Shown here piece by piece: positions 12,887-44,915 of a stretch of 64,000 nt of DNA. The DNA is from Actinomycetales bacterium (GTDB lineage Bacteria; Actinomycetota; Actinomycetes; S36-B12; UBA5976), in NCBI GenBank assembly GCA_027484085.1, contig JAIXQF010000004.1, positions 382,162-446,161 on the forward strand. The letters are read 5' to 3'. Numbering within the stretch: position 1 is the stretch's first letter; each line of letters begins with the position of its first letter. The notes below the pieces were generated by a model. That model did not search any database, was not told where the DNA came from, and saw only the letters and a program-made list of their open reading frames with translations. The position numbers were made by a program, and so were the translations under genes.

Positions 12887-14728
12887 ATGTGCGGAATCGT
12901 TGGATATGTTGGCCCGCAGCAAGCCCAAGATGTAGTTATTGAAGGTCTGCGCCGACTTGAATACCGAGGTTATGACTCCGCGGGCATCGCTATCGTTTCT
13001 GACCAAGCAATCCAAACCCGCAAGAAGGCTGGAAAGTTAGCCAACCTCGAAGCAGAGTTACTCGAAAACCCAATTTCCACCTCGCATACCGGCATTGGCC
13101 ACACTCGCTGGGCGACACATGGTGCACCAAACGATGTCAACGCCCATCCGCATGTGAGTGAAGACGGAACTATCGCAGTAATCCATAACGGAATCATTGA
13201 AAACTTTGCAATGCTTCGCGACAAGCTAATTGCTGAAGGTGTAACCCTGCGCAGCCAGACTGATACTGAAGTTGTTGCACACCTGCTCTCCAAGCAAATG
13301 AAATCCACACCTGGATTGGCCGACGCGCTGCGTGAAGTGTGCCAAGTACTGACCGGTGCTTTCACTCTTGTTGTTGTTCATGCCGATACCCCAGATGTGG
13401 TGGTCGCTGCTCGTCGTAACTCTCCACTTGTAGTTGGTCGTGGTGATGGCGAAAACTTCCTAGCTTCTGACGTTGCTGCATTTATCGCACATACTCGTAA
13501 CGCCATCGAGCTTGGTCAAGATCAAATCGTCGAAATCACCCCAAACTCAATCGAAGTGACAGATTTCTTTGGCAAGCCTGCTGACTTCACTGAATATGAA
13601 GTCACTTGGGATGCAGCAGCTGCAGAAAAGGGTGGCTTCGACCTCTTCATGCTTAAAGAGATCGCAGAGCAACCAAAAGCAGTTGCTGACACACTACTTG
13701 GACGCATTGATAATTCTGGAAAAGTTACCCTTGCAGATTTGGGTCTTGATGATGATTTCCTAAAGTCAATCGACAAGATCATCATTACTGCTTGCGGAAC
13801 TGCCTATCACTCAGGTTTGATCGCAAAGTATGCAATTGAACATTGGACTCGAATTCCTTGCGAAGTTGAACTAGCAAGCGAATTTAGATACCGCGATCCA
13901 ATTTTGACTCCAACAACATTGGTAGTTGCGATTAGTCAGTCCGGTGAAACCATGGACACTCTGATGGCTATGCGTTACGCCCGCGAACAAGGTGCAAAGG
14001 TTCTCGCGATCTGTAACAGCAATGGTTCAACCATTCCACGCGAAAGCGATGCTGTTATCTATACCCACGCTGGCCCTGAGATTGCAGTGGCTTCCACCAA
14101 GGCTTTCTTGACTCAGATTGTTGCTTGCTATTTGTTTGCAATGTATCTAGCGCAAACCAGGGGCACCGGTTACGGCAAAGACGCAGCTTCAGTTGCACTC
14201 GAACTCAGTGACATGCCAAGAATGATCGACTTAGTCCTGGATACAACCGAAGGCGTAAAGGCAATCGCCAAAAAGTTAATCGACAAGCAATCTGTGCTTT
14301 TCTTGGGCCGCAGTGTTGGTTTCCCGGTTGCCCTTGAAGGAGCTTTAAAGCTCAAGGAATTGGCTTACATGCACGCAGAAGGATTTGCGGCTGGCGAATT
14401 AAAGCACGGCCCGATCGCATTGATTGAAGATGGCATTCCAGTATTTGTTGTTGTGCCACCGCAAGATGATGAGTTGCACGACAAGATCGTTTCTAACATT
14501 CAAGAAGTCCGAGCTCGTGGTGCACTAACTATCGTGCTAGCTGAAGAGGGCGACGAATCGATTAATGAATTTTCTGATCACATCATTCGCCTACCTAAAT
14601 GCCCTGCATTAATGCAGCCATTAGTTGCTACCGTCCCGCTGCAGATTTTCTCTTGTGAGATGGCGACAGTTAAGGGCTATGACGTAGATCAACCGAGAAA
14701 CTTGGCGAAAAGCGTCACTGTTGAGTAA
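12887..14728 (+). CDS. glmS: glutamine--fructose-6-phosphate aminotransferase (isomerizing)
   Basis: The 613-residue enzyme makes glucosamine-6-phosphate from fructose-6-phosphate and glutamine. The N-terminal glutaminase domain has the nucleophile C2 (MCGIVGYVG) and RRLEYRGYDSAG; two SIS sugar-isomerase domains follow (AISQSGETMDTL; GRSVGFPVALEGALKLKE), and the C-terminus is PRNLAKSVTVE. No glmS ribozyme is expected or seen. The stop codon lies inside the stem of a strong hairpin (14720-14750). Confidence 0.98.
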   Translation: MCGIVGYVGPQQAQDVVIEGLRRLEYRGYDSAGIAIVSDQAIQTRKKAGKLANLEAELLENPISTSHTGIGHTRWATHGAPNDVNAHPHVSEDGTIAVIHNGIIENFAMLRDKLIAEGVTLRSQTDTEVVAHLLSKQMKSTPGLADALREVCQVLTGAFTLVVVHADTPDVVVAARRNSPLVVGRGDGENFLASDVAAFIAHTRNAIELGQDQIVEITPNSIEVTDFFGKPADFTEYEVTWDAAAAEKGGFDLFMLKEIAEQPKAVADTLLGRIDNSGKVTLADLGLDDDFLKSIDKIIITACGTAYHSGLIAKYAIEHWTRIPCEVELASEFRYRDPILTPTTLVVAISQSGETMDTLMAMRYAREQGAKVLAICNSNGSTIPRESDAVIYTHAGPEIAVASTKAFLTQIVACYLFAMYLAQTRGTGYGKDAASVALELSDMPRMIDLVLDTTEGVKAIAKKLIDKQSVLFLGRSVGFPVALEGALKLKELAYMHAEGFAAGELKHGPIALIEDGIPVFVVVPPQDDELHDKIVSNIQEVRARGALTIVLAEEGDESINEFSDHIIRLPKCPALMQPLVATVPLQIFSCEMATVKGYDVDQPRNLAKSVTVE

Positions 14729-14883
14729 ATCTCAGAGAGATTTGCTCAACCAATAAACACTGAACGTTCAGTACTAATTGGTTAAGTAATCCCCAGAGCG
14801 GATTACTTAAAACAGTGTTTATTTGCTAGACAATCGCCATAGCCGATTGTCTAGTAGGTTGCTGTTGCTTCCGCTCAACAGCA
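14720..14883. repeat. array of strong hairpins after glmS
   Basis: Four non-identical inverted repeats follow each other. 14720-14750: 13-bp stem with one G-T pair, loop CAGAG, containing the glmS stop. 14782-14810: 11-bp stem TTAAGTAATCC with loop CCAGAGC. 14826-14854: 11-bp perfect stem CTAGACAATCG with loop CCATAGC. 14860-14883: 8-bp stem TGCTGTTG. In addition an 11-bp pair AATAAACACTG/CAGTGTTTATT (14752-14762 with 14813-14823) encloses the second hairpin and a 14-bp palindrome at 14759-14772. None has a U-tract. They could be U-less terminators or RNA-stabilising elements. Confidence 0.75.
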
Positions 14884-15005
14884 CCGTAAGCCAACTGTAG
14901 CCAGAGTTACCCCTGTTACAAAAATGACATAATTCCTGCCCCCAGAAATTACGGGTTCCTTTGGCTCAAGTTTGAAAAAACCCGTATTCACGGCAAAGTT
15001 AAGGC
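14884..15005. other. upstream region of acpS
   Basis: The rest of the 277-bp glmS-acpS gap contains no gene. It holds one long-loop inverted repeat, ACGGGTT at 14951-14957 with AACCCGT at 14979-14985. It presumably contains the promoter of the acpS-alr-tsa operon, but no convincing -35/-10 pair was found. Confidence 0.4.
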
Positions 15006-43090: not shown

Positions 43091-43843
43091 ATGACTGATC
43101 GTGGATTTGCCGTAGTAACCGGAGCCAGCAGCGGAATTGGCGCAGCAACAGCTCGAGCCTTAGCCAATGAAGGTTTCCAAGTGATTGCAGCGGCTCGGCG
43201 GACGGACCTGCTCGCAGAATTGGCCAGTGAAAACTCACTGATTAGCGCGTGGGAACTGGATGTAACGGACCAAACAAGCGTTGACGCTCTGGTGGCACAC
43301 CTTGCCGACAAAAAGGTAACCGTTTTAGTTGCAAATGCTGGTGGCGCCTTTGACGGCACATCAGTTGCAGATGCCGATGTCGAAAGCTGGATCAAGGCGT
43401 ACGACGTGAACGTAATTGGCGCATTGCGCACCATCAAATCTTTCATTCCAGCATTGATTAAGTCTGGTGAAGGAACCATTGTCTTAATGGGATCGACAGC
43501 TGGCCGAATCGTTTATGAAAATGGTGGCAGTTACACCGCAGCCAAACATGCAGTTGCTGCATTGGCGGAAACTTTACGACTAGAACTTGCTGGTGAACCG
43601 GTGCGCGTAGTTGAACTTGCGCCAGGCATGGTCAAGACGGATGAGTTCGCAGTAAAACGCTTCGGGGGAGACAAAGAGCGGGCTGCAAAAATCTACGAGG
43701 GTGTAGCCGAACCTCTAACAGCAGATGATGTTGCTGAAGCAGTGCGTTGGAGTGTTACGTTGCCGCATCACTTCAACATTGACTTGATGGTAATTCGCCC
43801 ACTAGCGCAAGCAGCTCAGCACAAGGTAGTGCGAAAACTTTAA
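43091..43843 (+). CDS. SDR family oxidoreductase (YdfG-like)
   Basis: About 250 residues with TGASSGIGAATARAL, ANAGGAFDG, and SYTAAKHA with Ser in MGSTAG as the catalytic triad. Arg-Arg-Thr after beta-2 (AARRTD) suggests NADPH preference. Members include 3-hydroxy-acid dehydrogenases (YdfG). ATG 43091 is preferred over in-frame ATGs at 42968 and 43073. It diverges from the agmatinase-like gene and converges with the VOC gene with a 4-bp overlap. Confidence 0.87.
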   Translation: MTDRGFAVVTGASSGIGAATARALANEGFQVIAAARRTDLLAELASENSLISAWELDVTDQTSVDALVAHLADKKVTVLVANAGGAFDGTSVADADVESWIKAYDVNVIGALRTIKSFIPALIKSGEGTIVLMGSTAGRIVYENGGSYTAAKHAVAALAETLRLELAGEPVRVVELAPGMVKTDEFAVKRFGGDKERAAKIYEGVAEPLTADDVAEAVRWSVTLPHHFNIDLMVIRPLAQAAQHKVVRKL

Positions 43844-44322
43844 GTGGTTGCACTTTCATAGGCGATACGCATTGCTTCTAAATCAATCTTGCGCATTTGC
43901 AACATTGCTTCAGTTGCAGCTTTTGCACCTGCTGGATCCGGTCCACCAAGGTATTGCCCCATCTGCGGCGCAGTAACCTGCCAAGAAATTCCAAACTTAT
44001 CTTTGAGCCAGCCGCATTGACTTTCCTGACCACCATCAGCGGTCAAGATCTCCCAGTAATGATCGATGTCGGCCTGATCTTTGCAAGGAATCTGAAACGA
44101 GATTGCCTCGCTATGTGGAAACTGTGGTCCGCCATTTAATCCGATAAATGGCTGATCAAAAATCTTGAAGTCGACAACTACTTCTTCGCCTTGTTGGTTG
44201 CCAGGTGTTTCAGCTGGGGTGATCCAGTTACCTCCGATGCTGCTGTTGGGAAAGATGCTGGTGTAGAACTGTGCGGCTTCTCGGGCATTGCCGTTGAACC
44301 AAAGGCAGGTGGTTAAATTCAT
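43840..44322 (-). CDS. VOC/PhnB-like (glyoxalase-fold) protein
   Basis: The 160-residue protein has the PhnB/3-demethylubiquinone-methyltransferase-like signature TCLWFNGNAREAAQFYTSIF and GWLKDKFGISWQVTAPQ. These proteins are widespread and mostly unassigned; no enzymatic residue set is clear. Confidence 0.82.
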   Translation of the reverse strand: MNLTTCLWFNGNAREAAQFYTSIFPNSSIGGNWITPAETPGNQQGEEVVVDFKIFDQPFIGLNGGPQFPHSEAISFQIPCKDQADIDHYWEILTADGGQESQCGWLKDKFGISWQVTAPQMGQYLGGPDPAGAKAATEAMLQMRKIDLEAMRIAYESATT

Positions 44323-44344
44323 GAGACAAGTTTATTGGTGGTGT

Positions 44345-44542
44345 TGGAGGTGTTCCTTCACTTCGCTCAGTCAACCTCCAGACTGCGCTCGGATACTCAA
44401 GTTCATCGCAGATCTTGCTGGACTTTCAGTCCAGCATCAAATGAAAAACGACGTAACCTTCGATGCAAGCATCGCGGTACGTCGCTTATTCATTTGCATG
44501 CTCACCTAGGCGAGCATGATCTGTGATGCACTTGTGCATCAC
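44345..44542. repeat. array of strong hairpins downstream of tmRNA
   Basis: Five inverted repeats lie side by side. 44345-44380: TGGAGGT/ACCTCCA with a 22-base loop. 44416-44436: 9-bp perfect TGCTGGACT, loop TTC. 44438-44496: long compound stem with CAAATGAA/TTCATTTG outside, CGACGTA/TACGTCG in the middle and CGATG/CATCG at the tip. 44497-44518: CATGCTC/GAGCATG. 44523-44542: 9-bp perfect GTGATGCAC, loop TT, starting 8 bp after the tmRNA 3' end. None has a U-tract. Function is unknown; U-less terminators are one option. Confidence 0.75.
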
Positions 44543-44549
44543 TCACTTG

Positions 44550-44915
44550 TGGTGGAGGTGCCGGGAATCGAACCCGGGTCCTTAGGTGAAGATTTGGTTA
44601 TTCTCCGAGCGCAGTTTGCAGCAGCTTTTCTCTGCCCCGACGTTCACGCAAACAAGATGTCGACAGGCACAGTCACTGTTAGATTTTCCGTCAGAACCCG
44701 CGACCGGTTCCGTTGGTAAGTTCCCTAAATGACACGAGGATCCAGAGCGGGAACGCCCCTGGTCTCGCGGATTCCGAGGCTAGCTTATGCAGCTAGGGCG
44801 AAATCAGTGCGGTTAGATTTGGCACTTATTGTTTTTGCTGGACGTTTACGAGATGACCAACATTCTCGGCTCGCTTCTCCCATTTCGACTACCAAAGTCG
44901 AAACCGTTCACCCCC
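44550..44915 (-). ncRNA. ssrA: tmRNA
   Basis: The 366-nt RNA begins GGGGGTGAACGGTTTCGAC and ends with a tRNA-like domain whose T-arm GGGTTCGATTCCC and 3' CACCTCC-A-CCA pair with the 5' end as a 7-bp acceptor stem. The CCA is encoded. The tag frame at 44785-44823 (read on the minus strand) gives AKSNRTDFALAA then TAA; the ALAA end is the usual protease-degradation signal. With SmpB it rescues stalled ribosomes. Confidence 0.96.

Follow-up and report, generated by a model that had tools for sequence, protein, structure and literature searches.

The hairpin array behind the tmRNA gene of the window, as we call the whole 64,000-nucleotide stretch of actinobacterial DNA analyzed here, is best explained as one gene-less insertion unit of ~207 bp that lies at the tmRNA 3' end, regenerates that end and brings in a terminator, a reading whose chances we put at about even. 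Comparison with related genomes shows modular units that share a direct orientation, boundaries at a common core, a location behind tmRNA and two main displaced lengths, and that are present in some relatives and absent from others. Related units stand behind tmRNA in other aquatic actinobacteria, across several families of the order and sometimes in tandem.

The array occupies the space between the start codon of a VOC-like gene (44322) and the tmRNA 3' end (44550); as both genes lie on the minus strand, it is best read on that strand, where it starts directly after the tmRNA 3' CCA. The original prediction of five stems in the ~200 bp between the two genes is confirmed in position and in detail (Table 1), including the 59-nt compound stem and the perfect 9-bp stems with tiny loops, one with a 3-nt loop and the other with 2 nt between its arms. 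The hairpins are real and far beyond chance: the minus strand of 44323-44549 folds at -97.5 kcal/mol (z -7.7) and the plus strand at -95.2 kcal/mol (z -7.9), with shuffle means of ~-61 and 0 of 200 shuffles as good in either case. In the predicted fold the array forms a single object, a cloverleaf of three hairpins followed by a separate hairpin that ends in CACCTCCA. According to single-sequence folds, an outer stem can close the cloverleaf by pairing the first hairpin region (44523-44542) with ~44392-44414; an alignment-based count for this stem is unusable, as the covariance model described below registers no such stem. A consensus terminator scan of the window unit, which allows loops of 3-8 only and so excludes the nested hairpin, reported no terminator. 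At the gathering score, Rfam 15 matches only the tmRNA and one tRNA in the window, and a scan of seven loci gave, besides tmRNA, only weak sub-threshold matches; a known RNA family was accordingly rejected as the identity of the array (Clostridiales-1 in L016, for example, reaches 29.9 bits of the 48 required).

Table 1. Features of the array and its neighbors, in window coordinates
Feature	Position	Strand	Description
tmRNA gene, presumed insertion target	44550-44915	minus	tag AKSNRTDFALAA; ARAGORN; Rfam RF00023, 148 bits
Core CACCTCCAC in tmRNA acceptor stem	44552-44560	minus	repeated at unit boundaries in relatives
Cloverleaf part of unit	44390-44547	minus	full-length match of the covariance model from four relatives, 67.7 bits; folds
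First hairpin	44523-44542	minus	arms 44523-44531/44534-44542, 9 bp perfect; alternative pairing with ~44392-44414
First leaf hairpin of cloverleaf	44497-44518	minus	arms 44497-44507/44508-44518, 11 nt, 91% complementary
Long compound hairpin, 59 nt	44438-44496	minus	apical UGCUUGCA; U5 run in 3' arm (44444-44448); proposed tmRNA terminator
Third leaf hairpin	44416-44436	minus	arms 44416-44424/44428-44436, 9 bp perfect, GAA 3-nt loop
End hairpin, type 1	44345-44380	minus	GGAGGTTGA, short variable stem with GAA loop, GGAACACCTCCA; proposed recombination site
End-hairpin stem	44345-44351/44374-44380		7 bp; sequence stem search
Displaced near-copy of tmRNA 3' end	44345-44352	minus	CACCTCCA, 8/9 core letters
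Downstream VOC/PhnB-like gene (PF06983)	43840-44322	minus	outside the unit

Within the genus, where 20 of 23 genomes yield a tmRNA match, the same anatomy in different letters is found behind tmRNA in G005, G020, G004 and G016 (L011, L016, L020, L024). A covariance model built from these four relatives, with the window left out, finds the window behind its tmRNA with an E value of 1e-14 and a partial copy in G010 (E 3e-8). The only other matches better than E 0.01 are reverse-strand echoes, four in number, at these same places; a family-wide search with the model matches 6 of 43 genomes, all of them in the genus. In the five-sequence alignment 97.6% of the cells are paired and 24 of 43 pairs changed on both sides (shuffles mean 9.7, slid versions at most 5), a covariation count drawn from only five sequences in about three groups and from an alignment fitted to the model. 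Several other members of the genus carry an ordinary terminator-like hairpin in place of the cloverleaf, and in G007, G010 and G012 cloverleaf remnants lie further from tmRNA.

The surroundings of the array vary as well. The first gene behind it differs between species of the genus, with VOC and SDR genes alongside, as read by eye from translations, DoxX-like and DUF805-like genes and a possible HigB-like toxin (L017). Genomes differ in whether they encode the terminal CCA of tmRNA (L011, L016, L020, L024 and other ends), and the letters that follow CACCTCCAC at tmRNA 3' ends appear to be part of the inserted unit. In G022, G021, G013 and G002 only the first 89-96 bases of a tmRNA precede the contig end (L026, L027, L028, L029); G002 has a full tmRNA on another contig too, and such an end is perhaps an assembly break in shared sequence.

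To place the array in a wider context, we turned to the order, in which 123 of the 166 genomes searched have a tmRNA match above the Rfam cut-off. ARAGORN finds the gene in 96 of 97 loci, and removal of the false calls L126 and L159 and of five flanks shorter than 150 bp left 89 flanks. In the 600 bp that follow tmRNA, these flanks contain 33 exact copies of the 9-nt core of their own host in direct orientation, distributed over 23 flanks, and no inverted copy; the next 1000 bp hold no direct and one inverted copy. The negative terminator scan above weighs against an insertion reading, as does the failure to link a recombinase or a viral, phage or plasmid carrier to the units (below). Further points against it come from the copies themselves: 66 of the 89 flanks have no exact core copy, the window is absent from the 23 that do since its own copy has one mismatch, and the displaced copies follow the tmRNA variants of their hosts (e.g., TCTCGG in L124, TCCCGC in L125 and L177), as local duplication would produce too. 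The core copies bound gene-less units of ~60-200 bp, a strong hairpin first and an end hairpin after it, and many of the units are near-equal in size and layout (e.g., 108-115 bp). Some stand alone and others in tandem (L125, L129, L130, L158, L177 and L081, and in the genus L045, L053 and L055), with adjacent units of different kinds in L081, L129 and L130. The best local hairpin has a median of -27.8 kcal/mol in tmRNA-proximal stretches versus -20.0 kcal/mol further down, and a hairpin of -15 kcal/mol or better is present in the first 110 nt of 86 of 90 flanks versus 69 of 89 control stretches. The match of the displaced copy to the host tmRNA spans 15 nt in 15 copies, 9 nt in 12, 10 nt in two, 13 nt in one and 6 nt in one, as counted over 31 copies (30 of the 33 exact ones and one with a mismatch, with the simple repeats of L046, two in number, and of L051, one, omitted), and these two main lengths mark two main joints, at the T-arm and the acceptor stem. 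Most of the genomes are draft assemblies in which repeats can be misassembled, yet units of the same kind occur in assemblies from different samples.

The end hairpins fall into two types, whose outer parts read GGAGGTT/AACACCTCC or CGGGA/TCCCGG in an alignment inspected by eye. Type 1 combines constant outer parts with a variable inner stem; its pattern, GAGGTTGN{8,30}GAACACCTC, occurs in nine copies in 8 of the 23 genus genomes, all within 300 bp downstream of tmRNA, against none for the reversed control. Its loop is C-GNA-G in 13 of 17 aligned copies and C-AAA-G in four, and GNA triloops are unusually stable in DNA. Type 2 is composed of CGGGAATCGGGAGGAG, a variable stem, CGACGG(A/C/G)TCCCGG and the core, with small variations among 17 sequences, and its 13 copies in 12 of the 166 genomes all lie within 180 bp downstream of tmRNA (reversed control, 0). 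When the type 2 pattern with the core was scanned against 84,980 species, it returned 10 contigs, all 10 with tmRNA beside it on the same strand; their titles name eight actinobacteria (two of them Candidatus Nanopelagicales) and two entries of uncultured bacterium, and several of the contigs were already part of the order-wide set. The pattern GGTTN{10,30}AACACCTCCAC was found at 21 places in 16 of the 166 genomes. Outside the genus only L081 has tmRNA among the loci tested (L095, which overlaps L086, left out), one place within the genus (G017, L092) is without tmRNA, and the other places were taken as chance on a reading of L080 and 500 bases of L083.

Two pairs of relatives present filled and empty sites with exact boundaries. 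In the first, 109 bp separate tmRNA in G012 from a stretch that lies directly behind tmRNA in G004; this stretch is the start of the cloverleaf unit, which in G012 lacks ~80 bp of inner hairpins. In the second, G050 has 88 bp ahead of a 162-bp stretch that comes immediately after tmRNA in G098. This stretch is 92.0% identical between the two genomes and the tmRNA genes are 84.6% identical, a difference that would fit transfer and would fit constraint too. In both pairs we infer insertion, not deletion, as the direction of change. Furthermore, 43 of the 55 shifted matches of at least 60 bp between flanks start no more than 3 bp from the core in both partners, and the other 12, judged from their positions, look like downstream coding sequence or inner hairpin parts; the shared core somewhat favors matches that start there, but similarity is genuinely lost upstream of it. 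On these comparisons, the filled and empty sites and the core-starting matches indicate that units have been gained and shuffled at tmRNA.

We propose the following model, in which a unit, read in the tmRNA direction, would consist of a structured terminator, here the cloverleaf, and a far-end hairpin whose last letters nearly copy the tmRNA 3' end. A new unit would join the tmRNA 3' end at either of two positions, the T-arm or the acceptor stem; the tmRNA end would be regenerated and the old end would come to lie beyond the unit, the terminator of the newcomer would take over, and the older unit would be pushed away and could decay. Joining would presumably proceed by site-specific recombination through an enzyme acting in trans, with the end hairpin as its putative recombination site, and the cloverleaf would end tmRNA transcription. 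The units are too small to house a gene and thus have no integrase gene inside. Tyrosine-recombinase hits (PF00589) number 1-3 in the genomes of the genus and two in 14 of the 23, the two common ones being presumably XerC and XerD; elsewhere the array-bearing genomes G052, G070 and G100 have two hits each and G031 has 15. None of the tyrosine recombinases of 14 array-bearing genomes outside the genus lies on the tmRNA contig, and within the genus G010 has one hit on that contig, ~25 kb upstream. With no recombinase gene in the units or tied to the tmRNA contig, either a host Xer or serine recombinase would act in trans or repeat recombination would suffice. A bolder version of the model, which we consider rather unlikely, is an integron-like system without genes: the tmRNA 3' end would serve as a fixed landing site beside which cassettes are captured, each composed of a tmRNA terminator and a hairpin site, which a host enzyme such as XerC/XerD would recombine while it is folded and single-stranded, and the terminator of an important RNA gene would itself become mobile and exchangeable.

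The alternative that survives best needs no dedicated recombinase and attributes the units to tandem duplication, unequal crossing-over and homologous recombination through the tmRNA gene, with template switching at hairpins keeping the stems perfect. It accounts for copies that follow the host's own tmRNA variants and for array-bearing genomes with just two tyrosine recombinases, and it is consistent with a simple tandem duplication seen in the genus (L045). A second gene end points the same way. The array behind glmS (window 14720-14888) begins at the glmS stop codon, folds with a z of -8.1 and varies within the genus, its hairpins differing between relatives, and in 5 of 16 genus genomes the final 9 nt of glmS reappear in inverted form 12-13 nt downstream, and in one they reappear in direct form (the window's own copy of the glmS end is imperfect), which suggests a general process at gene ends. 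Since similar processes at two gene ends favor a general cause, recombination between repeats keeps a quarter of the weight. It fits poorly with the two main displaced lengths, with a type 2 left arm that is identical across several families, with neighboring units of different kinds in one array, and with exact copies that are direct only and near tmRNA only.

An origin of the units as scars of large tmRNA islands or prophages, with the interior deleted and the left-end terminator joined to the right-end fragment, appears improbable. Two published descriptions speak for it: in PMC4383910 a regenerated gene with a displaced 3' fragment is the signature of integration into tDNA, and PMC3146451 describes Dehalococcoides ssrA-GIs as tandem islands with 20-bp ssrA repeats, T-loop insertion and a serine recombinase, 15 of them without integration modules. 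The near-equal size and layout of many units, however, would be unexpected from independent deletions, and in the 14-kb flanks examined in the genus same-strand core copies occur only within ~330 bp of tmRNA. No viral, phage or plasmid carrier of the units emerged from pattern and blastn searches either: type 2 patterns had 0 matches in viral contigs, and blastn found no match to two L158 units among phages and plasmids, nor to the window unit among phages. Type 1 patterns did match 9 and 14 stretches of viral contigs, which we judged to be chance given folds and context unlike those of the units; each of the 14 is crossed by an open frame (108-781 aa), and none contains a tmRNA according to ARAGORN.

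We also consider it quite doubtful that the array is an RNA structure or 3' trailer that governs the maturation or level of tmRNA and is selected as RNA. The covariation of the cloverleaf and the U-run in the tmRNA sense would suit such a role, as would an excess of G-T over A-C in the hairpins, which amounts to 27 to 2 in type 2, where an invariant pair alone supplies 16, and 14 to 2 in type 1, where a single pair supplies 10. Against it, other relatives have a simple terminator-like hairpin instead, both strands of the array fold equally well, the units shuffle, and the cloverleaf of G012 has been cut down once a new unit stood in front.

The array had also been taken as a possible sign of a recurrent intergenic element class, which does exist at the tmRNA 3' end of other species and is not supported around the genome itself. 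Short segments thought to look alike at 14.87 and 54.71 kb are only weakly similar: CACTTCGCTCAG, with at most two mismatches, has nine occurrences in the window where 6.3 would be expected, a number reached in 16 of 100 shuffles, and the 54.71-kb segment offers nothing but 7-bp stems and a single 17-nt repeat at 71%. The suggested likeness to the glmS array holds for style, strong hairpins from a gene's 3' end, and not for sequence, as none was found to be shared. A DNA search of the genome with the array gave a best other match of 29 bits, and the next best match of the cloverleaf model there has an E value of 0.298. In a 464-kb sample of the genome (the window and twenty 20-kb stretches of a single contig, scanned in 11,516 steps of 200 nt each), a G+C-corrected fold scan with separate peaks ranks the tmRNA array second and the glmS array third. 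Regions dense in inverted repeats do occur in this sample, at nine places with at least three hairpins of at least 8 pairs in 230 bp; the densest are the glmS array (4 in 166 bp) and the tmRNA array (3 in 127 bp), and the remaining ones are looser groups or, at L239, a tandem of ordinary terminators. In total the sample contains 491 hairpins of at least 8 pairs versus 320 in one block shuffle. An element class of hairpin arrays spread over the intergenic regions of this genome is hardly credible, for all that the glmS array is equally strong and similar in style, because neither search finds related sequence elsewhere in the genome and the sample yields only looser groups, tandem terminators and one known-type leader; a dispersed repeat was rejected on the same searches and scans.

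Other structured places in the sample deserve mention in their own right. The strongest fold of all is the tandem-duplicated terminator at L239 (11139-11226), where two ordinary terminators, ~60 bp apart and nearly identical including their flanks, stand before a following gene. The hairpin-rich rpsO-pnp space (L247:4156-4399), rank 5 in the fold scan, is probably a structured pnp leader, and the glmS array perhaps reflects a parallel process at a protein gene. Around the 13 tRNA genes of the sample, a search for tRNA 3'-end copies of at least 10 nt within 400 bp found none save an 11-nt one at tRNA-His.

Read as a gene-less insertion unit at tmRNA, the array resembles several known systems in part. 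It is reminiscent of intrinsic terminators, with a strong hairpin directly behind a gene and, as read by eye, a U-run in the tmRNA sense, and differs from them in its cloverleaf with a long nested hairpin and in a second, site-like hairpin. REP/BIME-type palindromic repeats are short, gene-less, palindromic and intergenic, as are the units described here, which unlike them sit behind tmRNA and are not dispersed. In work by Williams from 2003, enterobacterial tmRNA elements reportedly carry the ssrA terminator at the attachment site, an idea that a terminator-bearing unit would fit. With tmRNA islands, as described for Islander (PMC4383910) and for the Dehalococcoides ssrA-GIs (PMC3146451), the units share a regenerated tmRNA 3' end, a direct displaced 3' fragment, tandem arrays and insertion at the T-arm or 3' end; the displaced fragment lies downstream in direct orientation, with 33 direct and 0 inverted copies in the 89 flanks and 8 of 9 letters in the window. 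In contrast to these islands, the units measure ~60-200 bp rather than kilobases, have no genes and no integrase, and end in a hairpin with a variable stem. Islander rejects candidates below 2 kb or without an integrase (PMC4383910), and such units would therefore be missed. Like integron arrays with gene-less cassettes (PMC11014356), they stand in tandem behind a fixed site, with the newest beside it, and have a foldable end site with constant ends and a variable stem; unlike in integrons, the outer boxes, read by eye, are tmRNA sequence and not the attC boxes GTTRRRY/RYYYAAC, and the cassettes carry a terminator-like hairpin. Among open-licence papers we found none on gene-less units at tmRNA in these bacteria.

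The tmRNA gene is a favored landing site for islands, and its flanks here hold a much smaller kind of unit that falls below Islander-type filters. These units appear to carry only what a harmless intruder at tmRNA needs, namely a regenerated gene end and a new terminator. If they move by themselves, they would rank with the smallest site-specific mobile DNAs that we know of, and hairpin-site recombination could be tested on them outside integrons; otherwise, they would show how terminators pass between lineages.
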